From: Candidatus Leucobacter sulfamidivorax
Lineage (GTDB): Bacteria > Actinomycetota > Actinomycetes > Actinomycetales > Microbacteriaceae
DNA: 64,000 nucleotides
Assembly: GCA_016771945.1 (NCBI GenBank)
Contig: QZLF01000001.1
Coordinates: 1,383,447 to 1,447,446, forward strand
Direction: 5' to 3'
A program made the translations under genes and the position numbers. Of this stretch, positions 44,819-56,222 are shown one piece after another (within the stretch, counting starts at the first letter, position 1; the number at the start of each line of letters is the position of its first letter). Under the pieces are notes generated by a model. That model was not told where the DNA came from, made no database searches, and was given only the letters and a program-made list of their open reading frames with translations.

Positions 44819-44904
44819 GCGCGGGTGGCGGAATTGGCAGACGCGCTAGCTTGAGGTGCTAGTGCCCGTATTAGGGCGTGGGGGTTCAAGTCCCCCCTCG
44901 CGCA
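44819..44904 (+). tRNA. tRNA-Leu (anticodon GAG)
   Basis: An 86-base class II tRNA. The acceptor stem pairs GCGCGGG with CTCGCGC (one G-T pair), discriminator A, no encoded CCA. The anticodon arm is CTAGC-TTGAGGT-GCTAG, giving GAG, which reads CUC. A long variable arm and the TTCAAGT T-loop follow. Its last bases form the left attachment site of the mobile element, which regenerates an intact tRNA. Confidence 0.96.
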
Positions 44905-44906
44905 CG
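44884..44906 (+). other. attL core
   Basis: The 3' end of tRNA-Leu from the T-loop through the acceptor stem plus two bases. It is identical to 56132-56154; sequence diverges immediately outside both ends. Confidence 0.92.
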
Positions 44907-44910
44907 AACA

Positions 44911-44961
44911 GAAAATGGCCTCTGACCTGGGGTTTAGATCCCCGGGTTGGGGGTCATTTTC
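44911..44961. terminator. Element-borne hairpin after tRNA-Leu
   Basis: GAAAATGG near 44911 pairs with the matching arm ending TCATTTTC at 44961; a long stem with several G-T pairs encloses an inner GGGG/CCCC hairpin. It stands between the tRNA and the convergent integrase end and probably terminates both. It replaces the original tRNA terminator now located at 56160-56191. Confidence 0.6.
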
Positions 44962-44965
44962 GTGC

Positions 44966-44986
44966 CATGTGCTGAGATATGTGCTA
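44966..44986 (+). other. Left arm-type integrase sites
   Basis: CATGTGCT (44966-44973) and TATGTGCT (44978-44985) form a direct repeat with a 12-base period, 60 bases inside the left end. The same repeat with the same period occurs near the right end (55993-56013). Confidence 0.6.
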
Positions 44987-46270
44987 AGCCCCACCGAGAT
45001 GGGCCGCGAAGCGGTCTGCTGCGGCTTTCTGCATCGTCGGGGTGACATGGCTGTAGATGTTCATCGTGGTTGTGATGGTGGAGTGCCCCAGGCGCTCCTG
45101 TACTACCTTGGGATGCTCGCCAAGCTCCAGCAGGAGTGTGGCGTGCGTGTGGCGCAGCCCCTTGATCGTCACGCGGGGCAGCGTCGGGTGTGCCTTGGCG
45201 AGCCAGTTCATGCGGCGATCCCAGCGGCTCGTCATGGCGTCGGGTGAGCGCAGCTTGCCCTCGTCGTCACCGAACACATACGCATCGGCTTTCGCCAAAT
45301 CGAACGACACTTCGGCGCGGGCGACCTTGTAGGAGGCGAGCACTTTGAGGGTCGCGGCGTCCACGTCGATCACGCGGGCGGTGCCCGTTTTCGTGGTCTT
45401 GGTGGTCGTCCAGTCCTCGGTGTTCACCGCTCGCCGGATGCTGATGCGCCCGGTCTTGGTGTTGATGTCGTTCCATCTGAGCGCGAGAGCTTCGGAGCGT
45501 CGCATCCCGGTGTAGGCGATCAGTCGCCACAGTGGGAACAGTTCGTCTTGCAGTTCCTTCTCGTTCCAAGTGAGGAACGTCTGTAGCTGCTCGCCCGTCC
45601 AGGTCACGATTTCCGGTTTCTGCGCTCGAACCTGTGACGACTTCGGGGCGTTCACGGTGCGCTTCTTCTTTGCCGGGTTGACTTGGATCAGCCCATCGTC
45701 GATTGCGGCGTCGAGGATCGCGCCGAGGACGACGTGCACCTTGTGGATGCTGTTGGCCGAGAGTGGTTTGCCTTTGCCGTACTCGTCCTTGCGCCCGCTC
45801 TTTTCCAACTCCCGGTAGTGGGAGCCGATGCGGGTGGCGGTGAGCTTGTCGATCCTGATGCGACCCAGGTCGGGGGTGATGTGGTTACGGATGATCTTCC
45901 GATACCCCTTGATCGTGGAATCGGCCAGCCGCAAGCTCGACATCCAATGCTCGGCGTACACACCGACCGTGGGGGTCTTGCCCTGGAACTTCTCGTTCCT
46001 CGCTTTCTTTCGTAGCGCCTCGGTGAGCGCGGCCTGTGCTTCTTCGAGGTCGGTGAACCCGCCACGGGTGAGCCGCTTCTCGCCCAGCTCGGGCTTCTCC
46101 GGGTCGATCAGCACATAGATTTGGAACTTCCACCGTCGCCCCTTGCGGGTCTGGTAGTCGCCCAGCGATCCCTGATGCCGCGACCGGGAACGTCGCTGCT
46201 GCTTCTGCTTCACCCCCTCAACGCTGCTCGGTGCCGCCTCGTCCGGCGGCGGGTGACTGGCTGGTGCCAT
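44984..46270 (-). CDS. int: Tyrosine-recombinase integrase
   Basis: A 428-residue site-specific recombinase. It has an N-terminal arm-binding region rich in basic residues (QRRSRSRHQGS, TRKGRRWKFQIYV), a SAM-like core-binding domain (about 105-200) and a catalytic domain with Arg in YTGMRRSEAL, the LRHTHAT box and the nucleophile Tyr in MNIYSHVTP. The ATG at 46270 follows AAAGGAG. It lies next to attL and reads toward it, the usual arrangement. Confidence 0.95.
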   Translation of the reverse strand: MAPASHPPPDEAAPSSVEGVKQKQQRRSRSRHQGSLGDYQTRKGRRWKFQIYVLIDPEKPELGEKRLTRGGFTDLEEAQAALTEALRKKARNEKFQGKTPTVGVYAEHWMSSLRLADSTIKGYRKIIRNHITPDLGRIRIDKLTATRIGSHYRELEKSGRKDEYGKGKPLSANSIHKVHVVLGAILDAAIDDGLIQVNPAKKKRTVNAPKSSQVRAQKPEIVTWTGEQLQTFLTWNEKELQDELFPLWRLIAYTGMRRSEALALRWNDINTKTGRISIRRAVNTEDWTTTKTTKTGTARVIDVDAATLKVLASYKVARAEVSFDLAKADAYVFGDDEGKLRSPDAMTSRWDRRMNWLAKAHPTLPRVTIKGLRHTHATLLLELGEHPKVVQERLGHSTITTTMNIYSHVTPTMQKAAADRFAAHLGGA

Positions 46271-46301
46271 AGACCTTGCTCCTTTCTCTCGTGGTGGTTC
46301 G

Positions 46302-46862
46302 TTACTCGAACGCGAGTGAGGCGTTCGGGTCGAGTTGCAACAGCCTGCCGGTGGCGTGTTCCTCGCGGGCGGTCTGCACGTCGTAGCGTTCCTGGTACAC
46401 CTCGCGCGGAGTGATACCAACCTGGCCGCGGTCGTACTTGGCGAGTATTTCCTCGGCCCAGTGCGCCGAGTTGATCGCTTGGAAGCGTTGCTCTTTCCAG
46501 TAGCGCACCAAGTCCTCGGTGGTGAGCTTCACGGCGCCTGCGACCCATGCCTGTATCTCTTCGGGTAGGAACGACTCGGGCACCCCGGTCAGCGTGACCG
46601 CCTCAGCAAGCGGGGTAAGAAGAGCTGCGGGTGTGGTGCGGAGGATGTAGGCGAGGGCGGTGAGGTCGTCCACGTCCACGCGCCGGTCGCCGTTCTCGAT
46701 CTTGCTGATCCCCGACGGGGCGAGCTTTCGGCCCGCCTCGGTCATCAGCCGGGCGGCGGTGCGCACGTCCATGCCGATGGCCTGGCGTGCGGTGCGGAGG
46801 TTCTGGGCGACGTGCTCGTGCGTGATCCCGGCGGGGTTTCCCCGCACTCGTTCTGTTTCCAT
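46302..46862 (-). CDS. XRE-family regulator of the element
   Basis: A 186-residue protein with a Cro/CI-type helix-turn-helix at about 15-75 (DVRTAARLMTEAGRKLAPSG, SKIENGDRRVDV) and an acidic C-terminal part of unknown fold. It lies 31 bases before int on the same strand and is probably co-transcribed with it. The promoter (TTGACG, 17 bases, TACGTT) places the start of transcription at or next to the ATG, so the mRNA is probably leaderless. Confidence 0.85.
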   Translation of the reverse strand: METERVRGNPAGITHEHVAQNLRTARQAIGMDVRTAARLMTEAGRKLAPSGISKIENGDRRVDVDDLTALAYILRTTPAALLTPLAEAVTLTGVPESFLPEEIQAWVAGAVKLTTEDLVRYWKEQRFQAINSAHWAEEILAKYDRGQVGITPREVYQERYDVQTAREEHATGRLLQLDPNASLAFE

Positions 46863-46868
46863 ACTAGG

Positions 46869-46914
46869 AACGTACATGCCCGCTCTTGACTCGTCAAGCA
46901 CCATACTGTACTTT
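46869..46914. promoter_or_regulatory. Divergent promoter pair sharing one palindrome
   Basis: Reverse: -35 TTGACG (46897-46892), 17-base spacer, -10 TACGTT (46874-46869), driving the XRE regulator. Forward: -35 TTGACT (46886-46891), 17-base spacer, -10 TACTTT (46909-46914), driving the excisionase-like gene. The two -35 boxes abut and together form the palindrome TTGACTCGTCAA (46886-46897), so one bound repressor could block both directions. Confidence 0.75.
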
Positions 46915-46957
46915 ATTGGGAACTCAGGACTCTTGATTAGGGACGGCAGGCAGGGCG

Positions 46958-47197
46958 ATGAGAGACATATCGGTGACATTGGACGACTTACGGGCCTCCC
47001 GTAACGCGGTCATTACACGGGCGGAGGCTGCGGCGGCGCTCGGGGTCGATCCCCGCACGATCACGGCGAGCATCGAGAACGGGTCGATCCCGTCCGTGAA
47101 GCTCGGCAGGCGGGTCGTGATTCCACGAGAGAAGTTCCTGCGCATCTTCGACGGCGACGACGCACACTCCACGGTTCCCGGCACCCCCGCGCGGTGA
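46958..47197 (+). CDS. Excisionase-like DNA-binding protein
   Basis: A 79-residue protein with a MerR/excisionase-type helix-turn-helix (TRAEAAAALGVDPRTITASI, then ENGSIPSVKLGRRVVIPREK as a wing). Position opposite the XRE gene and size suggest the excisionase (Xis) that directs Int to excision. A replication-related DNA-binding role is the alternative. Confidence 0.75.
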   Translation: MRDISVTLDDLRASRNAVITRAEAAAALGVDPRTITASIENGSIPSVKLGRRVVIPREKFLRIFDGDDAHSTVPGTPAR

Positions 47198-47236
47198 ACA
47201 GGGCTGGTGGTGCCGATTCGGCACTCCCGTGCTGGT

Positions 47237-47270
47237 CGTCCGGCGCTTTGTCGGACGTGCCGCGTAGACT
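47237..47270 (+). promoter_or_regulatory. Candidate operator and -10 of the VbhA-Fic module
   Basis: An inverted repeat CGTCCG (47237-47242) / CGGACG (47252-47257) lies just before a -10-like TAGACT (47265-47270). Ribosome site AAGGAGG follows at 47291-47297, nine bases before the antitoxin ATG. Confidence 0.45.
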
Positions 47271-47306
47271 GAACTCACGAAGCCGACCACAAGGAGGCAC
47301 CCCATT

Positions 47307-47513
47307 ATGGCGACGAAGACTCGCGTATCCGAGGCGCACGTTCAGCGCGTGCTCACTGAGGTGCAGGCCGGGCAGCAGACCGCCGGTGAGCAGATGACCC
47401 CCGAGGGGCTGGAGCTTCTGGCCCGCCAGGTGCGCGGCGAGATCACCGTGGACGAGGCTGTCGAAGTGATCGCCGCCCGTACCCGCGCACGCCTGGCCGC
47501 TCGCACCGCCTGA
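47307..47513 (+). CDS. VbhA-like Fic antitoxin
   Basis: A 68-residue helical protein. The second half (LARQVRGEITVDEAVEV) matches the VbhA antitoxin pattern and the gene directly precedes fic, the usual order. The inhibitory [S/T]xxxE[G/N] motif of VbhA is not visible; the aligned stretch reads GQQTAG. It either inhibits by another route or is degenerate. Confidence 0.7.
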   Translation: MATKTRVSEAHVQRVLTEVQAGQQTAGEQMTPEGLELLARQVRGEITVDEAVEVIAARTRARLAARTA

Positions 47514-47529
47514 ACCGCTCGGCGTCGCG

Positions 47530-48315
47530 ATGCCTGATCGGTACACCTATCCGGGAAGCGATGTTCTGGTCAACACGTTCGGCATCACCGACTACGACGA
47601 CTGGAAAGATGCTGAGGCCGACTTCATCGGTGCCCGCATGGGTGCGCTACGCGAGCACCCCGTCGCTGGTGGCTACGATCTGCCGCACTTGCAAGCGATC
47701 CACGCCTACCTGACGCAAGATATGTACTCCTGGGGTGGCGAGATTCGCGCCACCGACACCCATCCCGGCGGCACCGGCATTGCGCATTGCCGCCCGCAGT
47801 TCATCGTTCCCGAGACGGAGCGCGTGTTTGGTGCGCTCGCCCAGCGCGACTACCTGCGCGACCTGGACGTGGATGCGTTCTCGGATGGGCTGGCGTGGGT
47901 GTGGGGTGAGACGACGGCGATCCATCCGTTCCGTGACGTGAACACGCGCAGTCAGCATGTCTTCTTCAACCAGCTCGCCCGCGATGCCGGGTGGGTGATC
48001 GACTGGTCGCAGATCCCCGGCGACGTGTTCGCCCATGCCCGCACCCTCGCCATCGTGGAAGATCACTCCGGGCTTGACGCGCTGATCCGCCCGAACCTCG
48101 TCACCGTCGAAGACGCCGCACGCTCCGACCGGCTCACGGCGAGCCTGGACGGGCACGCACAGGGCTTCACCACTCGCCGGTCGGTGCGCGACCCGGAGAC
48201 GTTGGATCGCGCGCTCGACGCCGCCCGGCAGCGCCGCTGGAACCTCCAGCCGCCTGAGGCGTTCGGTGGCGCGTCGCCCTGTGATCCGCGCAGCGGCCCC
48301 TCGCTCGGCCTATAA
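47530..48315 (+). CDS. Fic-domain protein with variant active-site motif
   Basis: A 261-residue Fic protein. Fic enzymes usually transfer AMP to target proteins through HxFx(D/E)GN(G/K)R. Here the loop reads HPFRDVNTR (132-140): catalytic His, Asp, Asn and first Arg are kept, but the two glycines of the anion hole are Val and Thr and the later Arg is His. Chemistry may be altered (as in Doc kinases) or lost. It lies 16 bases after the VbhA-like gene and converges on the relaxase tail. Confidence 0.82.
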   Translation: MPDRYTYPGSDVLVNTFGITDYDDWKDAEADFIGARMGALREHPVAGGYDLPHLQAIHAYLTQDMYSWGGEIRATDTHPGGTGIAHCRPQFIVPETERVFGALAQRDYLRDLDVDAFSDGLAWVWGETTAIHPFRDVNTRSQHVFFNQLARDAGWVIDWSQIPGDVFAHARTLAIVEDHSGLDALIRPNLVTVEDAARSDRLTASLDGHAQGFTTRRSVRDPETLDRALDAARQRRWNLQPPEAFGGASPCDPRSGPSLGL

Positions 48316-48849
48316 GCCCAGGATCGGGCCGTCACGCCGTGGCTCTGTGCTCGGGTGGTTCTGCTCGACCGTGCCGCGCAGTCGCCGCGCGCGGTCAGCG
48401 GCAAGCTGCCGGAGCTGCTCTGCCGCTGCACGCTTCACTTCGACCAGTGCGGCGGCTTGCTCGGGCGGCAGGGCGCGCAATTCCTCGGCATCGCGCCGCG
48501 CCACCGCCGCCTGTGCGTGCACGTTGCGGGCTTCGCGGTCGGGGCGGATGAACCGTGCTCGTATCGGGTCACGACGCACCCGTTCGACCCCCAACTCTCG
48601 CGCGAGCAGCGTGAGGCGTTCGCGGTTGTGCTGGTCTTTGAGCGCCGCCCGCCCAGACTGCGCATCCGCGAGGCGGCGGTCAGCGTCGATCACTCGCGGG
48701 TCGTTCTCGGCACGCCGCTCGGCAGCGGTGGTGGCCCACTCGGTGAGGCCGTCACCGTGGCGCGGTAGTACACCCCAGGCGTCGCGCACCTGCTCGCGTG
48801 CCGTGTGGGTGCGCTCGGTCGCGGCCTGGTACTCCTGTCGCGCTCGGCG
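48310..48849 (-). pseudogene. C-terminal remnant of the MobF relaxase
   Basis: Reads in the same frame as the relaxase immediately after its TGA at 48850-48852, as a continuous helical, Arg/Glu/Ala-rich tail (QEYQAATERTHTAREQVRDAW onward). Joining both parts gives about 1,150 residues, the length I expect for actinobacterial MobF proteins. A GTG at 48789 could start a separate 159-residue protein, but no ribosome site supports it. Confidence 0.6.
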
Positions 48850-51768
48850 TCATCCGAACCTGCCCGACGTGGCGAGCCGTTCCGATGTGGTGCTCTCGGC
48901 GGTGACGGCTGTGAGGTAGGTTTCGCCGTCCTCGACGGCCTGCGGCACCAACTCCGCGACGACCTCGGCGCGGGCTTGGGCTGTGTGAGTCTCGGCGGCG
49001 CGGATCATCTCGGCGCTTTGCTCGTCCTCCGCCTGGTGGTTGGCCTGCTGCTGGTCGAGCCGCTCCGCGATCTGCTCCCACTTCTCGGCCGTTCGCTCGG
49101 CGCGCTCAGCGTCACGCAGGAGTCGGACAACCTCGTCGTTGACGAGCTTCACCGGGCCGTCAGCGACGAGGCCGCGCACCGCTTCGGCCGCGCGTTCGGT
49201 CGCGTCGGCGAGTCCTCGGTCTGCGCGGTCGCGTTCGATCGCCTCGATGAACTGCGCTCGGGCGTCGGCCATGCTTTCCGCGACGACGTGCAGGGTGTTC
49301 TCGTTTCGGCCGCGGGTCATGCCAACATAGACGGTCGCGCCGCCCATCTGCTCGGTGAGGACGGTGTGTGAGGCGGGCACGGTAACGCCCTGCACCCCAT
49401 AGGCGGTCGCGGCATAGGAGAGGTGGGTGTGCTCGCGCACATACTCGGCGGGCAGGCGGATTGAGTGTTCGCGTTTGCGGTCGCTGTGCGCGTCACGCAC
49501 CCAGAGCGACCCATCCTGCTCGACTCGTTGGACGATCCACGGTTGCCGGTTCGCCACGCCCAGGTCGGCGCGGTTCTGCCGGGTCTGGATCAGATCACCG
49601 CGCCCGATGCTGAGGCTGTCGCTGCCGGTGGTCGTGGTGGTGTCGTCGACGATGCCCGCGCGGGTGCGTTCGTCTCGGATGCGATCATTCAGCCGGGCCG
49701 CCTCGTCATTCGATGCGACGGTGACGGCGTCGCCGTCGTGTCTGCTGGTGGCGAGGTCTTCGCGCAGTTCGTCGGCATCGGTGTGGAGCCGGATCAGCCC
49801 GAGCTTGCGCAGCCGGTCGAACACCTCGCCGGGGTTGCGACGGTCGCGCATCTGCACGGTGACCTCGGCGTAGGCGGGGTTGGTGAAGCGGTGTACCTCA
49901 TCCATGTCGAACGTGCGGCCCCTGAGTTGTGCGGCCATGTCGAGCACGCCGCCCCTGCCGACTGCGGGCAGTTGCGCGCGGTCGCCGACGAGCGCGAGGG
50001 TTGCGCCCGTCTCGGCTGTGACGGTGAACAGGGCGAGTGCGGTGTCTTGGTCGAGCATCCCGGCCTCGTCCACGACGATCCGCTCGCCACGGCGCAACTG
50101 CGCGTCTCGGGGTGGGCCGGTGTAGGTTCCGCCAGTCATCGGATCGGTGTCGCCTGGGGCGAGGCGTGTCCATACGCCGTCCTGGTTCCAGCGCCATCCG
50201 TACGCGTAGACGAGGGCGGCGACGCTTTCGGCGGGCACGCCAAGTTCTTGGTGCGCGACCTCGGCGGCACGCTTGGTCGGCGCAACCACCCGCACCCTGC
50301 CGCCGCGCTGCTCAGCGGCGCGGATCGCGGTGGCGAGCATCGTGGTCTTGCCCGCGCCTGCGGCGCCCTCCACGATCACCAACGGATCGCGCGAGGCAAC
50401 CGCTGCGGCCGCGACGAGCTGGCCAGGGTCAAGCTGCTGCCCGAGTGCGGCCGCGTGCTCGCGCACGTCGCCGTGTTTCGGCTCGCGGTCGGGTGTTCGG
50501 GCGGTGATGAGGTCGCGCAGTTCCGTCTCTACCTGCACCACCCGCAAACTCGTGAGGTGCGCGACATGCTCCGGGGTAGCGGTGTCAGGCGGCAGGATCG
50601 AGAAGCAATCCTCGAGCGCGAGCGTCGCTGCAACGGTCACCAGTTCGCGCAACTCCTGCGGGGTGGCACGCACGCCCGCCTCGGTGATGATGCGGGTGGC
50701 GTGTTCCTGCACGGTGTGGCGAGTCCATGCCGACTCTGCTGCGGCGCAATGATCCAGCGCACGCGATGCGATCCGCTGCACCGAGACCTCATCCGGTGAT
50801 ACCGGCACACGCGCCGGCATGCGGGCCAGGTGTTCGGGGTCGTAGCCGACCTCGCGGAGCTCGGTCAGCCAGGCTTCCTCTTCCCGCAAGGTCGTGGGCT
50901 TCTTCGCGGGGCGCTCATACGCCCACGCCTGCGCTGTCAGCCGAGATGAGACGACCGGCCCCATCGTCTCGCCCGGATGCGCCGTCTCCCACTCGGCTTC
51001 GAGCCGTTCCAGGTTCTTCCGCACCTGCTCGCCGCGCTTCGACATGAGCGCGTTGAACGGTTCGAGTTCGGTGACTTCGCCAGTCACCGGGTCGAGGAGG
51101 AGGCCGTGACGGTCGAGCACTTCCGCGAGTTCGGGGCTGGCGGCGATCACGGCAGTACCGAGGGCGCGGATCGCGCCTTGCTGCCGGAACGTCGCCGCCG
51201 TGTCGAGCGCCCGCCACTTGCCCGCCGCCCAGACACGGGCGCCGATCTGCATGTGGATATGCCGGTGAGGATCACCGGCCCGGCTCGTCCGGTGCGTGAT
51301 GCCGACCACCTGCATGTGCTCAATAGGTACGACCTCCTGCTTGCCGCGCGGGCCGACACGAGTCACGGAGTACTGGGCGAGCCACCGCTGAATCTCCGCC
51401 AGGGCGTCCTGCTGTGCTGCGTCCAGCGCCTTGGATACCTCGGGATGCAAGGCGGCAGCGACGGACAGGCTCTTGGGGGTGTTGATGACCATTTCCGCGA
51501 ACCGGGGCGACCCCTGCCGATCCAACCCCGCGAGGCGAGGCCTTCCCATCTGCTCGCCGGTATCGGGATTGATCCAGTCCACCCATCCCGCATACTCGTC
51601 AGCGGTCAGCACCCGACTACTCACGGCCTCGCCCGAAGCGTCGAGCACCGCGTACTGAACCCCGGTGCTGTCAGACAGGTAGTAGTCGTCAGCACGCGAG
51701 CGGTCGGCCTCGACATAGCGCAGCGCATCAGCCCCGGTGCCCCGGAGCAAGATCACGCCGCCCTGCAT
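48850..51768 (-). CDS. MobF-family conjugative relaxase/helicase
   Basis: A protein of about 972 residues. The TrwC-type relaxase domain carries the histidine cluster THRTSRAGDPHRHIH about 165-180 residues in, with probable nicking tyrosines in the N-terminal 45 residues (DDYYLSD). A RecD-like helicase follows: Walker A GAAGAGKTT, Walker B VVDEAG, and late SYAATAYGVQGVTV and YVGMTRGRN motifs. It should nick oriT and unwind the transferred strand. It ends early at an in-frame TGA that removes about 180 residues. Starts at 51783, 51780 or 51777 are alternatives to the ATG used here. Confidence 0.88.
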   Translation of the reverse strand: MQGGVILLRGTGADALRYVEADRSRADDYYLSDSTGVQYAVLDASGEAVSSRVLTADEYAGWVDWINPDTGEQMGRPRLAGLDRQGSPRFAEMVINTPKSLSVAAALHPEVSKALDAAQQDALAEIQRWLAQYSVTRVGPRGKQEVVPIEHMQVVGITHRTSRAGDPHRHIHMQIGARVWAAGKWRALDTAATFRQQGAIRALGTAVIAASPELAEVLDRHGLLLDPVTGEVTELEPFNALMSKRGEQVRKNLERLEAEWETAHPGETMGPVVSSRLTAQAWAYERPAKKPTTLREEEAWLTELREVGYDPEHLARMPARVPVSPDEVSVQRIASRALDHCAAAESAWTRHTVQEHATRIITEAGVRATPQELRELVTVAATLALEDCFSILPPDTATPEHVAHLTSLRVVQVETELRDLITARTPDREPKHGDVREHAAALGQQLDPGQLVAAAAVASRDPLVIVEGAAGAGKTTMLATAIRAAEQRGGRVRVVAPTKRAAEVAHQELGVPAESVAALVYAYGWRWNQDGVWTRLAPGDTDPMTGGTYTGPPRDAQLRRGERIVVDEAGMLDQDTALALFTVTAETGATLALVGDRAQLPAVGRGGVLDMAAQLRGRTFDMDEVHRFTNPAYAEVTVQMRDRRNPGEVFDRLRKLGLIRLHTDADELREDLATSRHDGDAVTVASNDEAARLNDRIRDERTRAGIVDDTTTTTGSDSLSIGRGDLIQTRQNRADLGVANRQPWIVQRVEQDGSLWVRDAHSDRKREHSIRLPAEYVREHTHLSYAATAYGVQGVTVPASHTVLTEQMGGATVYVGMTRGRNENTLHVVAESMADARAQFIEAIERDRADRGLADATERAAEAVRGLVADGPVKLVNDEVVRLLRDAERAERTAEKWEQIAERLDQQQANHQAEDEQSAEMIRAAETHTAQARAEVVAELVPQAVEDGETYLTAVTAESTTSERLATSGRFG

Positions 51769-51784
51769 CGCTCTCACCACCAAT

Positions 51785-51822
51785 GTTTCTAAACTAGAAA
51801 CTCTATCTATCTACCACGGTAG
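51785..51822. promoter_or_regulatory. Two palindromes upstream of the relaxase
   Basis: GTTTCTA-AAC-TAGAAAC (51785-51801) overlaps a -10-like TAGTTT on the reverse strand, and CTACCACGGTAG (51811-51822) lies ten bases on. Between them is CTATCTATC. They could be operators, or part of the origin of transfer; the rest of the 200-base gap to chrA shows only a weak GCGAT...ATCGC repeat. Confidence 0.45.
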
Positions 51823-51985
51823 CATACGTTCATTCAGAAGTCAGCAGAGCGATCTTAGAATCGCACTGTGCGACACGGAAGGTTCGCGTAAGTCGGTGAC
51901 GGCTTCTGAGCCGCGAGTGAACACTGCGTGAATGCAGCGCGGCGAGTAGCGCCAGTCCCGGATGGTGCCCCATTCTGAGTAAGAA

Positions 51986-53200
51986 ATGTTATCCGCAGAA
52001 GGTGGCCGTCGAACCGACTTTGGCGCGCCATTGCTGGTCCTTCTGGTGTTCTTGAGGTTAGGGTGCACGTCGTTCGGTGGCCCGGTCGCTCATCTTGGAT
52101 ATTTTCGAGCAGAGTTCGTCGAGCGACGCAGATGGCTGGGTGATCGCGCGTATGCGGATCTTGTCGCATTGTGCCAGTTTCTTCCCGGCCCGGCATCAAG
52201 CCAGGTCGGCATGGCGATCGGTTTGCAGAGAGCTGGAATACTCGGTCTTGTCGCGGCATGGCTCGGGTTCACACTGCCATCTGCGGTATTGCTGTTCGGG
52301 TTCGCGCTCGGCGTATCGACCCTTGGCGACGTATCGCAGGCTGGATGGGTGCTGGGCCTGAAGGCTGCGGCGGTCGCGGTCGTGGGTCATGCTGTGCTCG
52401 GGATGGCAAAGTCACTCACGCCTGATGCGCGACGAGCGACGATTGCTGTCGGGGTGCTCACTGTCGTGCTGCTCGTACCCGGCCCGCTGACGATGTTCGG
52501 CGCGATGGCCTTGGCCGGGATCGCGGGGTTCTTCGTCTGTCGATCCCCGAGCACGACCGAGAACGATGAACCGCGTTTCCGGGTGCGCCTGCGGCCCGCA
52601 GTCGGATGGTTGAGCCTGGCTGTGTTCGTCATGCTGCTCGCAGGGTTGCCGATTTTTGCTGTGTTCACCGGCAACGCCACGGTAGGCCTGATTGACACCT
52701 TCTATCGTGCGGGGTCGTTCGTGTTCGGCGGCGGGCATGTCGTGCTCCCGCTTTTGCAGGCTGAAACAGTGCAGACTGGACTGGTGGAGCCGGGTGCGTT
52801 CCTCGCGGGGTATGGTGCCGCGCAGGCGGTGCCAGGGCCGCTGTTCACCTTCGCCGCGTTTCTCGGAGCGGTCACCACGGGCGGCCCGAGTGGGCTGCTC
52901 GGCGCATCCATTGCGCTGCTCGCGATCTTTCTGCCGTCTGCGCTGCTCGTGATGGGGGTGCTGCCCTTCTGGGAGCGGTTGCGTCGTGCGCCGAGAGTGC
53001 AGCGTGTGCTGACGGGCGTGAACTCCGGAGTCGTCGGGCTGCTCGCCGCCGCGCTGTACGACCCCGTATTCACCGCGGGTGTCACGAACGCCGCATCACT
53101 CGTCGTCGCGGCACTCGCGTTTGTCGCACTCACGTCCTGGAAAACACCGGCATGGGCGGTAGTGCTCGGGGCCGCAGGAGCCGGGGCATTGCTGCTCTGA
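51986..53200 (+). CDS. chrA: Chromate transporter, two-domain type
   Basis: A 404-residue CHR-family membrane protein, likely a proton-coupled exporter of chromate. Two homologous halves are visible: FGGPVAHLG and QFLPGPASSQ in the first, FGGGHVVLPLL and QAVPGPLFTFAAF in the second, with ten or so helices. It is the first cargo gene on the element and diverges from the relaxase. No ChrB or ChrR partner is present. Confidence 0.92.
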   Translation: MLSAEGGRRTDFGAPLLVLLVFLRLGCTSFGGPVAHLGYFRAEFVERRRWLGDRAYADLVALCQFLPGPASSQVGMAIGLQRAGILGLVAAWLGFTLPSAVLLFGFALGVSTLGDVSQAGWVLGLKAAAVAVVGHAVLGMAKSLTPDARRATIAVGVLTVVLLVPGPLTMFGAMALAGIAGFFVCRSPSTTENDEPRFRVRLRPAVGWLSLAVFVMLLAGLPIFAVFTGNATVGLIDTFYRAGSFVFGGGHVVLPLLQAETVQTGLVEPGAFLAGYGAAQAVPGPLFTFAAFLGAVTTGGPSGLLGASIALLAIFLPSALLVMGVLPFWERLRRAPRVQRVLTGVNSGVVGLLAAALYDPVFTAGVTNAASLVVAALAFVALTSWKTPAWAVVLGAAGAGALLL

Positions 53201-53233
53201 ACGCGCTACGCGGATACTCAGGCGAGGCTGGCC

Positions 53234-53239
53234 TACAAT
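53234..53239 (+). promoter_or_regulatory. Candidate -10 for the ATPase-VIT1 pair
   Basis: TACAAT lies 34 bases before the ATPase start in the 72-base gap after chrA; no good -35 is seen. The following GGGAGG is the ribosome site. Confidence 0.4.
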
Positions 53240-53272
53240 GCGAGAAGCGTGCCCGCCTGGGAGGATTGAAGC

Positions 53273-55231
53273 ATGAGCCGTTTTTCGTCTCTGGTCAGGG
53301 CATATCCACTCGTGATCGCAACACTGTTGGTGGCTATGATCGGGTTGGTTCTTTTAGCGACTCCGGCCATTGAGTCGGCCAGCTGGATTGTGGGTGCGTA
53401 TGCGCTCGTGATTGCCGGGTGGGAGGCGGTCGGGATGATCCGGCAGCTCATCCGAGGGCACGCCGGGCTCGACATTCTTGCGGTGACGGCAATCACCGCT
53501 GCAGTGCTCGTTGGGGAGCCGTGGGCGGCGCTCGTGGTGGTGCTGATGCTCACCGGCGGGGCGGCCCTCGAAGATTACGCTGAGAACCGTTCGAAGCGGG
53601 AACTGACCGCGCTGCTGCGTAAGGCACCCCAGCAGGCCACGCGCATCCTCGCCCCAAGCGCACCCGGCGCGGACATGCACGGGCATACTGCCGAGGTCAC
53701 GACCGAGGACATACCGGTCGAAGAAGTCGAGGTGGGTGATCTGTTGTTGGTGCGGCCGGGTGCACTCGTGCCTGTGGACTCGATCCTCGTCTCCGAGCAC
53801 GCCGTGTTCGATGAGTCGTCATTGACCGGTGAAAGTCTGCCCGTTGAGCGTGACGCGGGAGAGAAAGTGTCGAGCGGTGCGGTGAATGGACAAGCCGCAG
53901 TCACCATGCGGGCTGCGGCTCCGGCCGCCGAGAGCGAGTATCAGCAGATTGTTCGGCTCGTCGAACAAGCCGCGGGGAGCAAAGCCAAAGTCGTGCGGCT
54001 CGCAGATCGGTACGCGGTGCCGTTCACAGTGCTCGCGCTCGTGATCGCCGGGATCGCGTGGGCGGTCAGTGGAGAGGCTGTCCGGTTTGCCGAGGTGCTG
54101 GTGGTGGCGACCCCATGCCCGCTGCTGATCGCCGCGCCGGTCGCGTTTCTCGGTGGCATGAGCCGTGCCGCGAGGTTCGGGCTGATCGTCAAGGGCGGCG
54201 GCACCCTCGAACAGCTTTCACGAGCCCGCTCGGCGGCATTCGATAAGACCGGCACCATCACTACCGGCAAGCCAGTGCTCGAACGCCTTCTGCCCGCCGA
54301 CCGCGCCAGCGAAGACGAGCTGCTGCGTTTCGCAGCCTCAGCGGAGGTGTACTCCTCTCACGTGCTTGCGGACTCCGTCGTGCAGGCCGCGAAACAGCAC
54401 GGCTTGTCGCTCGTCGAAGCCGAACATGCCGAGGAGATCGCGACAAACGGAGTCGCGGCTGTGTTCCGCACTCCTGACGCACCTGAGGCAGTGACGGTTC
54501 GTGTCGGCAAGCCCTCCTGGGTGCGCCACTCCGCGCCGGACCTCGTGCTGGCAGACCTTGCTCCAGGGGAACTCGCAATCTACGTCTCAGTCGATGGCCG
54601 TTTCGCCGGAGCCATCGTCATGCGCGACCAGGTGCGCGAAGAAGCAGCCCAGGCTCTCCGTCAGCTGAGCGCACTCGGTATCGAGCGTACGCTCATGGTC
54701 ACCGGAGACGTTGCAGCCACCGCCGAACCCATCGCGCGGCGCCTTGGAATCAGCGAGGTGCACGCGGAGTGCCGCCCCGGCGACAAAGTTCGCATTGTCA
54801 GTAGCGTGCAGCCCCGCCCGCTCATCATGGTCGGTGACGGCCTCAACGATGCCCCGGTGCTCGCTGCTGCGGATATTGGCTTCGCAATGGGGGCGCGCGG
54901 TGCAACCGCAGCATCGGAGTCTGCGGACATCGTGAACCGCTACGACACGCTCTCGGCCCTGCCGCGCGCGGTGAGCATCGGCAAGGACACCGTGCGGATC
55001 GCACTGCAAAGCATCTGGCTCGGCATCATCATCAGCGTCGGCCTCATGCTCATCGCCGCCTTCGGGTTCCTCCCAACACTCCTCGGCGCGTGGCTGCAAG
55101 AAGTCGTTGACCTGGTGGCCATCCTCGGCGCACTCCGTGCAGTCGGCCCACGATCTGAGCGAATCACACGATCATCACCAGTCGCATCGACGGAACAACT
55201 TCACTTCAGCACGACCCAAGACAGGAAATGA
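53273..55231 (+). CDS. Heavy-metal P1B-type ATPase
   Basis: A 652-residue metal pump without an N-terminal metal-binding domain. Motifs: TGES (185-188), TPCP in helix six (280-283, in place of CPC or SPC), DKTGT (324-328) and GDGLNDAP. The HP dipeptide that marks P1B pumps reads SSHVLA (361-366), with Val for Pro. Metal specificity cannot be assigned from TPCP. Overlaps the VIT1-type gene (ATGA), so the two are co-translated. Confidence 0.9.
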   Translation: MSRFSSLVRAYPLVIATLLVAMIGLVLLATPAIESASWIVGAYALVIAGWEAVGMIRQLIRGHAGLDILAVTAITAAVLVGEPWAALVVVLMLTGGAALEDYAENRSKRELTALLRKAPQQATRILAPSAPGADMHGHTAEVTTEDIPVEEVEVGDLLLVRPGALVPVDSILVSEHAVFDESSLTGESLPVERDAGEKVSSGAVNGQAAVTMRAAAPAAESEYQQIVRLVEQAAGSKAKVVRLADRYAVPFTVLALVIAGIAWAVSGEAVRFAEVLVVATPCPLLIAAPVAFLGGMSRAARFGLIVKGGGTLEQLSRARSAAFDKTGTITTGKPVLERLLPADRASEDELLRFAASAEVYSSHVLADSVVQAAKQHGLSLVEAEHAEEIATNGVAAVFRTPDAPEAVTVRVGKPSWVRHSAPDLVLADLAPGELAIYVSVDGRFAGAIVMRDQVREEAAQALRQLSALGIERTLMVTGDVAATAEPIARRLGISEVHAECRPGDKVRIVSSVQPRPLIMVGDGLNDAPVLAAADIGFAMGARGATAASESADIVNRYDTLSALPRAVSIGKDTVRIALQSIWLGIIISVGLMLIAAFGFLPTLLGAWLQEVVDLVAILGALRAVGPRSERITRSSPVASTEQLHFSTTQDRK

Positions 55232-55965
55232 ACAATATGGCATCCGACTCAAGCACCACGCCGCATCCCGGCGAAGCCCACCTGCAGAACGTGGGCCAAC
55301 GTTTGAACTGGCTACGTGCAGGGGTGCTCGGCGCAAACGACGGCATCGTCTCTACCGCGGGTGTCGTCGTCGGTGTCGCTGCCGCTACACCAAACAACGT
55401 ACTGGCAATCGCGACGGCCGGTATCGCCGCCGTAGTTGCCGGGGCGTTCTCAATGGCTGGCGGAGAGTATGTTTCGGTGAGCACCCAACGCGACACAGAG
55501 AAAGCGCTCATCGCAAAAGAACGGTGGGAGCTCGAAACCATGCCCGAGGAGGAGCTTGAAGAACTCACCGAGCTCTATCGACAGCGGGGCCTCTCAGATG
55601 ACCTCGCACATCAGGTCGCGGTGCAGCTTACCGAGACGGACGCTCTCGCCGCTCACGCAGAGGTCGAACTCGGAATCGACCATGAAGAGTTCACAAGCCC
55701 GTGGGCAGCCGCCGTGTCATCGTTCATTGCGTTCGCCGTTGGAGCGCTGATCCCACTCATCATGATCTTGCTCCCCGTCGGCGGACACCGAGTTTGGATC
55801 GCAGCCATCGCAGTTGTGATCGGCCTCTTCCTCACCGGTTGGATCAGCGCTGCGCTCGGTGGCGCGCCGCGCGGTCGCGCAATTCTCCGGAACGTGGTCA
55901 TGGGCTCAGCGACCATGATCGCCACATACGCCATTGGGGCACTCTTTGGCGTGGCCATCGGATAG
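55228..55965 (+). CDS. VIT1/CCC1-family iron or manganese transporter
   Basis: A 245-residue five-helix protein. The first helices carry GANDGIVSTAGVVVGVAAA and GAFSMAGGEYVSVSTQ, the family signature, followed by an acidic cytosolic metal-binding segment (EEELEELTELYRQRG) and three C-terminal helices. Family members move Fe2+ or Mn2+ out of the cytosol, usually by proton exchange. It is coupled to the P1B ATPase; together they suggest a metal-detoxification pair. Confidence 0.9.
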   Translation: MNNMASDSSTTPHPGEAHLQNVGQRLNWLRAGVLGANDGIVSTAGVVVGVAAATPNNVLAIATAGIAAVVAGAFSMAGGEYVSVSTQRDTEKALIAKERWELETMPEEELEELTELYRQRGLSDDLAHQVAVQLTETDALAAHAEVELGIDHEEFTSPWAAAVSSFIAFAVGALIPLIMILLPVGGHRVWIAAIAVVIGLFLTGWISAALGGAPRGRAILRNVVMGSATMIATYAIGALFGVAIG

Positions 55966-55992
55966 GCCGCTTCTCGTGATCCGGCCCGATTT

Positions 55993-56013
55993 CATGTGCT
56001 AACTCATGTGCTA
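55993..56013 (+). other. Right arm-type integrase sites
   Basis: CATGTGCTA (55993-56001) and CATGTGCTA (56005-56013), a direct repeat with a 12-base period about 120 bases inside attR. It matches the pair at 44966-44986 in sequence, spacing and orientation. The rest of the 55966-56131 end segment has no gene. Confidence 0.6.
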
Positions 56014-56131
56014 CCGACGCTGCTAGGTTGTGAATCGCGGTGCAGTTATCCACAGGTGGGCCTCGCAGAAACCGCGGAATCATGCGGCAGAACGCCGATT
56101 CACGATTTCGTGTGCGAGGGGGAACGGATCA

Positions 56132-56154
56132 GTTCAAGTCCCCCCTCGCGCACG
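56132..56154 (+). other. attR core
   Basis: A 23-base copy of the tRNA-Leu 3' end, identical to attL. It is preceded by GTGCGAGGGGGAAC (56111-56124), a shortened inverted copy, so the element arm and the core can pair as a stem. Confidence 0.92.
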
Positions 56155-56159
56155 CGAAC

Positions 56160-56191
56160 GAAATGGCAGGATCCAAGGATCCTGCCATTTC
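56160..56191 (+). terminator. Displaced original terminator of tRNA-Leu
   Basis: A perfect 15-bp stem (56160-56174 with 56177-56191), two-base loop and TGTTTT tail, six bases after attR. Before insertion it would have followed the tRNA directly. Confidence 0.85.
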
Positions 56192-56222
56192 TGTTTTCCC
56201 GACTGCTACGCTCTGCGGCAGC

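Follow-up and report, generated by a model that had tools for sequence, protein, structure and literature searches.

An element at tRNA-Leu(GAG) and its genes

The stretch analysed here, a 64,000-nucleotide segment of contig QZLF01000001.1 of Candidatus Leucobacter sulfamidivorax (the window, whose positions are used throughout), carries an element of about 11.3 kb inserted in a tRNA-Leu(GAG) gene. Comparison of its sequence with those of its relatives suggests that this element passes from one genus to another and exchanges its metal-transporter cargo with that of other islands, at the point where transfer is expected to start. The target tRNA gene is intact and occupies 44819–44905 on the plus strand (ARAGORN). 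Its 3′ end, GTTCAAGTCCCCCCTCGCGCACG, forms the core of the left attachment (att) site, attL (44884–44906), and recurs exactly, over 23 bp, as the core of attR (56132–56154), 11,248 bp away; both cores were defined by repeat comparison and read on the plus strand. A first-pass annotation, made from the letters alone, had proposed that exact 23-bp repeats delimit an element of this size in this gene, and the boundaries were borne out. The GC content is 61–70% in 10 of the 11 1-kb segments of 45001–56000 and 72% in the remaining one, compared with mostly 70–77% to the left and 68–75% to the right.

Pfam and NCBIfam profiles matched the gene content listed in that annotation, namely an integrase, an XRE/Xis switch, a Fic module, a MobF relaxase and metal transporters. 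The tyrosine integrase (44984–46420, minus strand; PF00589, 3e-20) has the motifs TGMRRSE and YSH; its start codon is uncertain, and the frame as given runs into the neighbouring gene, an XRE-type regulator (46302–46979, minus strand; HTH_31, 3.4e-6) whose start probably lies further in. Divergent from the latter is the gene for an Xis-like HTH_17 protein of 79 amino acids (46958–47197, plus strand; Pfam/NCBIfam profile match). The MobF (TrwC-type) relaxase-helicase (48850–51783, minus strand) comprises 977 amino acids and ends at an in-frame TGA (48850–48852); it matched the TrwC profile at 9e-41 and the NCBIfam MobF profile at 122 bits (cut-off 100), and AAA_30 also matched. MobF relaxases are characterized by N-terminal tyrosines, a histidine triad and a helicase with a Walker A motif, and the window protein contains YY at residue 34, HRHIH at 173 and GAAGAGKT at 473. 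Between the relaxase gene and attR lie the genes of a chromate efflux transporter (51986–53200; TIGR00937), a cadmium-type P1B heavy-metal ATPase (53273–55231; TIGR01525/TIGR01512) and a VIT1-family transporter (55228–55965; PF01988, 6e-69), all on the plus strand.

No coupling protein or mating-channel gene was detected by Pfam or NCBIfam in the 12 frames scanned within the element (smaller frames were left out), in agreement with the earlier remark that a transfer channel is lacking, and the same profiles gave no FtsK/TraB-type translocase among the element proteins scanned. We therefore rejected an integrative and conjugative element (ICE), for which channel genes were not found, and an actinomycete ICE, for which an FtsK-type protein was not found; a phage satellite was rejected because the relaxase and the presumed origin of transfer (oriT) point to conjugation. 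The element has a site-specific integrase with bounding att repeats and its own relaxase, the C-terminus of which is shortened in this copy. Sequence comparison supports its assignment as an integrative mobilizable element (IME) belonging to a Micrococcales-wide family that combines a tyrosine integrase, mostly at tRNA-Leu, with a MobF relaxase. The annotation had called it a complete IME: the class stands, but completeness is doubtful, because the relaxase of this copy is shortened by the in-frame stop.

Insertion also appears to affect transcription termination of the tRNA gene. A hairpin at the left end of the element (44909–44963, plus strand; fold z = −3.95 for 44907–44985) seems to stand in for the tRNA's own terminator, and a terminator-like hairpin past attR (56159–56197, plus strand; z = −5.94 for 56140–56205) is likely the original one, displaced by the element. 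Insertion thus rebuilds the 3′ end of the tRNA gene, which stays intact, and puts another terminator behind it. Joining 44906 to 56155 in silico, the empty site predicted by the annotation, places the tRNA directly before the terminator-like hairpin, and nearly that sequence is found at the empty GAG site of a congener (G047, locus L146), a near match to the site predicted for the window (CGAACGAAGAGGCAGGATCGTGACGATCCTGCCTCTTCTG versus CGAACGAAATGGCAGGATCCAAGGATCCTGCCATTTCTG). Among 30 tRNA-Leu loci examined in the genus, the 3′ end was readable with the pattern in 18; three of these are occupied, with an adjoining integrase (L144, which is the window, L148 and L156), and 15 show a hairpin without an integrase in the stretch. 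In the genus, a search with the window's flanking DNA gave only short, weak matches outside the host, and no strain was found that combines these wider flanks with an empty site.

Relatives in other genera and chromosomal contexts

The window relaxase had 94 relatives in a contig search, and the analysis continued with the best 80. An integrase of the window's type (51–100% identical) is encoded at 19 of the 80 loci, and a more distant match (25–26%) at 6 more. The annotation had proposed looking for the element at tRNA-Leu in other actinobacteria, and 16 of the 19 integrase-bearing loci indeed have a tRNA-Leu nearby; one has a tRNA-Ser and two have none. Elements with both integrase and relaxase are present in Leucobacter, Microbacterium, Gulosibacter, Brachybacterium, Micrococcus and Mycetocola. 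Exact att repeats of 21–23 bp, spaced 9.8–16.3 kb apart, were found in 12 of 18 tRNA-bearing loci tested, the window included; one locus has 15 bp only and five have none.

Presence varies among relatives, a point on which the annotation had staked its reading: the integrase or a relative of it (E ≤ 1e-60) is found at 18 places in 13 of the 54 Leucobacter genomes, the host being one of the 13. The tRNA genes at these places are Leu in 12 (GAG in 3, CAG in 8, TAG in 1), Ser in 2, Tyr in 1 and Arg in 1, with none in the stretch in 2; a single genome, G050, carries three such integrases, at GAG, CAG and TAG. Remoter integrase relatives (47–59%) lie at tRNA-Ser, tRNA-Tyr and tRNA-Arg in L136, L137, L138 and L140, the last of these in the host. 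The Ser and Tyr targets, unlike Arg, have a long variable arm. The host carries a second element with the window's integrase type, at tRNA-Ser(GGA) on C2.

The closest copies come from two metagenome-assembled genomes (MAGs). One, from an uncultured member of the Microbacteriaceae (L047), is 99.7% identical to the window element over 11.27 kb; the other, from Nesterenkonia (L046), is 99.5% identical over 7.6 kb. Both reside at tRNA-Leu(CAG), and the flanks of the three copies have no DNA similarity as far as they were compared (for L046, the left flank alone). The flanks of L048 and L059 have only genes in common with those of the window, at 71–73%. Judged by these comparisons, near-identical copies of the element occupy different chromosomal contexts. 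The last 45 bp before attR differ in L047 (window equivalent 56088–56131) with the att-to-att length unchanged, and this tail occurs in no other fetched locus; in L046, the chromate transporter gene passes into unrelated sequence near the contig end (window equivalent about 52450).

The zone between the relaxase start and attR varies among members, containing a dehydrogenase and an IclR gene in L191, a beta-eliminating lyase and an MFS gene in L196, and genes for Clp_N and polyketide-cyclase proteins in L064 and L197. An RND efflux gene lies upstream of the relaxase in L192, where the right end of the element was not found. In L195, a second, interrupted integrase gene directly follows attR, a tandem remnant. 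Viral contigs yielded zero matches to the att pattern, the relaxase and the oriT pattern alike, and the window's cargo had no match in plasmids. In 249 genomes of the family, the cargo had no near-identical copy besides that of the host, the best match being 80% over 2.7 kb (G189).

A conserved site upstream of the relaxase as candidate origin of transfer and possible module joint

Upstream of the relaxase gene we identified a conserved site (51811–51836, minus strand) consisting of the core TGAATGAACGTATG and an inverted repeat, CTACC/GGTAG, which was recognized by conservation and pattern search and occurs once in the window. At this candidate oriT, the relaxase is predicted to act on DNA with TGAATGAACGTATGCTACC or TGAATGAACGTATGCTACCGTGGTAG. 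A second inverted repeat, GTTTCT...AGAAAC, was seen by inspection between its core and the relaxase start (51785–51801, minus strand). All 83 testable loci have the core ATGNACGTATG upstream of the relaxase, no more than 140 bp away, with no mismatch in 56, one in 22 and two in 5; with up to two mismatches allowed, the figure in shuffled sequences is 1.7%. The 83 loci derive from a first tally of 87 rows (92 relaxase-match loci plus the window, minus 5 without a gene start and 1 with a short upstream region) after removal of 4 duplicate loci; a strict core pattern missed 14 of the 87 rows. Stems were judged on 51 distinct 26-base tails, 38 of which (75%) can form a perfect stem of 5 bp or more after the core, against a shuffled mean of 6.6% and a largest shuffled value of 15.7%. 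The arms of the inverted repeat covary, with 11 complementary arm pairs, some of which are overlapping variants. Across 398 Microbacteriaceae genomes, the pattern GAATGNACGTATGCTAC occurs at 14 places and its reversed control at none. All 14 places lie directly upstream of a MobF gene (59–100% identical); eight are new, in that they had not been used in motif discovery, and six are the window or loci already in the set. In L056 (TTCTGAATGTTCC-like units), L094 (GAAT) and L095 (TTGAA), the core is immediately preceded by short tandem iterations, which may have been left by repeated joining of strands at the nick.

Pairwise comparison of relatives (window/L059, L063/L068 and pairs alike on the relaxase side) placed their clean module switch points in a 12-bp interval of this site, TGAATGAACGTA (51825–51836, minus strand). 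From 51825 to attR, the window and an element of L. weissii (L059) show 8 differences in 4,330 bp (99.8% identical). Up to 51824, the two differ by 12–30% or more: the integrase is mostly 12–18% different, the relaxase differs by 20–40% per 250 bp, and the sequence near the Fic genes is poorly alignable. The other end of the near-identical block is the att site; the comparison thus delimits a putative exchangeable cargo cassette extending from the candidate oriT to attR (51825–56154). In an unrelated pair of MobF elements, L063 and L068, the cargo shows 7 differences over 2.4 kb, and divergence rises to about 20% at the same core base. In both pairs, the sequence shared at the core amounts to only about 12–16 bp. 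Pairs and groups with a relaxase side 90–100% identical, cargo at chance level and the break at the core comprise L055/L056, L066/L192/L198, L082/L125 and L094/L095; L063/L081 (94% versus 80%) changes in the same direction as the switch pairs, without a sharp break.

A full comparison covered 94 contexts and 4,371 pairs (L226, L231 and L232 duplicate L064, L116 and L117). The 300-bp relaxase side is at least 93% identical in 44 pairs, and the cargo side of these is at least 90% identical in 29, below 75% in 14 and in between in 1. Conversely, where the cargo side is at least 90% identical (37 pairs), the relaxase side is kept in 29, below 90% in 7 and in between in 1; four of these seven represent the single event that separates the window group from L059. 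When 72 loci were compared, the near-identical blocks had 160 internal ends, 8 of them no more than 11 bp from the core. Conservation, arm covariation, genome-wide specificity and natural switch points together mark the site as a candidate oriT, one that would serve many MobF relaxases of actinobacteria. This likely transfer origin also looks like a module joint.

We consider it probable that the element is a mobile MobF IME and that the block from its candidate oriT to attR is a cassette, exchanged when the relaxase joins the oriTs of stacked elements. The integrase and the Xis-like protein, under XRE control, would recombine the two att cores and so excise a circle. Next, the relaxase would nick inside TGAATGNACGTA of the candidate oriT, within the 12-bp interval, and lead one strand through a type IV secretion channel provided by a conjugative element in the same cell. 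Four TraG/VirD4-type coupling proteins are encoded elsewhere in the host genome, one of them at C1:1131438 with a distant MobF gene about 34 kb away. The element would reintegrate at a tRNA-Leu, where elements could stack in tandem. Strand transfer might start at one oriT and end at the next in the stack, or two oriTs might be recombined in the manner of TrwC; either way, the backbone of one element would be joined to its neighbour's cargo, here the chromate, cadmium-type and VIT1 transporters. Given the order attL, integrase, relaxase, oriT, cargo, attR, a strand that leaves at one oriT and is closed at the following one would carry one backbone with the neighbour's cargo, as L059 appears to have. 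The model offers a testable account of how adaptive genes change vehicles, with metal transport here and dehydrogenases, a lyase and MFS genes in other members. On the wider proposal, that Micrococcales MobF IMEs evolve by built-in cassette exchange in which any cargo between oriT and att is swapped as one block among otherwise well diverged elements, with oriT as a second site-specific recombination site and each mating possibly reassorting cargo, we are evenly divided.

Several observations weigh against exchange at oriT, and some of them would suit an ordinary IME, in which RecA-dependent homologous recombination or the insertion of cargo would account for the switches, and these would look site-specific only because oriT has to be retained. 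The element in L048 is a mosaic relative to the window that switches away from oriT (differences drop at about 50,800), so that other recombination also acts. The four switch groups with identical relaxase sides are of a kind that constraint on oriT alone could produce. The L073/L085 pair is loose, with 0–9% difference per 200 bp on the cargo side, about 15% on the relaxase side and a rise within ~50 bp past the core. Furthermore, the parents share the 12 bp, so the exact crossover base is not fixed; many of the 160 block ends are not independent; and the tandem remnant is a single case. As regards the site itself, 13 of the 51 tails lack a perfect 5-bp stem, and the short inverted repeat of the window is not part of the minimum-energy fold on either strand (z about −1.0 and −1.4), so that a palindrome bound by protein is equally possible. 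Contigs may be misbinned in MAGs, the source of both closest copies (L046 and L047), whose organism names are therefore less certain than the difference of context. Nevertheless, in window/L059 and L063/L068 it is the cargo that is retained and the relaxase side that changes, from one and the same core base and with very little shared sequence there, and the far end of the window/L059 block coincides with the att site. These points argue against homologous recombination or simple cargo insertion, an explanation we regard as possible but rather unlikely.

The premature stop raises the further question of whether the element is a decaying, immobile remnant whose relaxase has lost its function. 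The window relaxase ends about 180 codons short of its near-identical copies; the frame remains open to 48310, and the continuation (48310–48849, minus strand; frame comparison) corresponds to the C-terminal part found in full-length relatives. The window copy may thus be impaired by the loss of ~180 C-terminal residues, but its short form retains the relaxase and helicase domains. Among the 80 relatives, 72 relaxases reach about 1,145–1,175 amino acids, 7 end earlier and 1 leaves its contig; intact copies therefore exist. They include L046 and L047, more than 99% identical, in other contexts and at another tRNA-Leu. The unusual motif of the Fic protein is, moreover, conserved across the family rather than decaying, and we give the remnant explanation little credence. 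We consider it similarly improbable that the conserved site is a promoter or operator of the relaxase gene instead of an oriT. The core does contain TATGCT, a −10-like sequence about 50 bp from the start codon, but TATGCC replaces it in 17 of 59 distinct variants, which breaks the likeness, and neither covarying arms nor switch points at the core would be expected of a promoter. The promoter and oriT roles of the core may overlap.

Known transfer systems, the Fic pair and other MobF loci

Hybrids that arise from tandem integrated elements are a feature of the SXT/R391 family, which consists of large conjugative elements with a relaxase of another family. The likeness lies in the tandem hybrids; here, the elements are mobilizable, measure 10–16 kb and carry an oriT-to-att block. 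The comparisons that follow draw on the available excerpts of the cited papers. Canonical IMEs encode a relaxase without a coupling protein or channel (Guedon et al. 2017, PMC5704250). The window element resembles them in its integrase, att repeats, own relaxase and lack of a type IV secretion system, but differs in that its family has a MobF relaxase and is spread through the Micrococcales (PMC5704250). According to the same review, none of the canonical IMEs then known has a MobF (or MobH) relaxase, and a single canonical IME had been found in Actinobacteria (PMC5704250).

The relaxase TrwC of plasmid R388 recombines two tandem oriTs, and does so efficiently with its N-terminal 600 residues (PMC3264647). 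The window protein shares with it the TrwC domain, paired N-terminal tyrosines, histidine triad and helicase, and its candidate oriT likewise has an inverted repeat beside a short core; the R388 core differs (TGAATGNACGTATG), and the window element is integrative, with no channel genes found (PMC3264647). Recombination between oriTs has been documented for plasmids and ICEs, and in staphylococci non-identical oriT cores recombine during mobilization, as proposed here (O'Brien et al. 2015, PMC4652767). That work concerned plasmids and a laboratory event, whereas the chimeras described here are natural and integrated (PMC4652767). At the Microbacterium sad locus, a TrwC-type relaxase gene also adjoins adaptive cargo; the accessible text of that report does not give element ends, an oriT or an integration site (PMC6868719). 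We found no description of this MobF IME family or its oriT in the titles and abstract openings of the open-licence PMC papers returned on the subject, nor in the available portions of PMC11389934, PMC11104534, PMC5587640 and PMC6868719. The kind of system is known; what appears to be new is the variant, a MobF IME family proposed to exchange cassettes at oriT. Similarly, the joining of oriTs is a known mechanism for TrwC, and its natural use by MobF IMEs appears to be new.

The Fic pair lies between the Xis-like gene and the relaxase gene. It consists of a VbhA-like putative antitoxin of 68 amino acids (47307–47513, plus strand; PF18495, E 0.0013, 19.1 bits, below the cut-off of 25.9) and a Fic-fold protein (47530–48315, plus strand; PF02661, 1.4e-10). 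The usual Fic core motif is the glycine-rich HPFx(D/E)GNGRxxR, from which the window protein departs, reading HPFRDVNTRSQH. The VbhA-like partner stands alongside Fic in 17 rows (15 different records), and the altered core HPFRDVNTR(S/T)QH occurs in 12 of the 17 (11 different records). The core of L060 (also row L197) is HATRDVNTRSQH, and L061, L123 and L198 matched outside the motif only. The altered form is common to the readable relatives (L046, L047, L048, L062, L066, L070, L080, L096, L191, L192 and L193), each with the 68-residue partner. From its sequence, the altered core may support a different chemistry.

Further MobF genes are present in the host genome (G000; C1, C2, C3, C5, C7 and C9), at 68%, 59%, 37–39% and weaker, with one in two frames (81% and 68%). 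A distinct MobF block of up to 8.9 kb, with a serine recombinase, a MerR-type regulator and an rRNA adenine dimethylase, is found in L086, L087, L088, L089 and L110, its relaxase being 66% identical to that of the window. This block is ~99.9% identical or more across records named Homoserinimonas, Kocuria, Intrasporangiaceae, Brevibacterium and Actinomycetota, and the corresponding block of L090 is at 96%.

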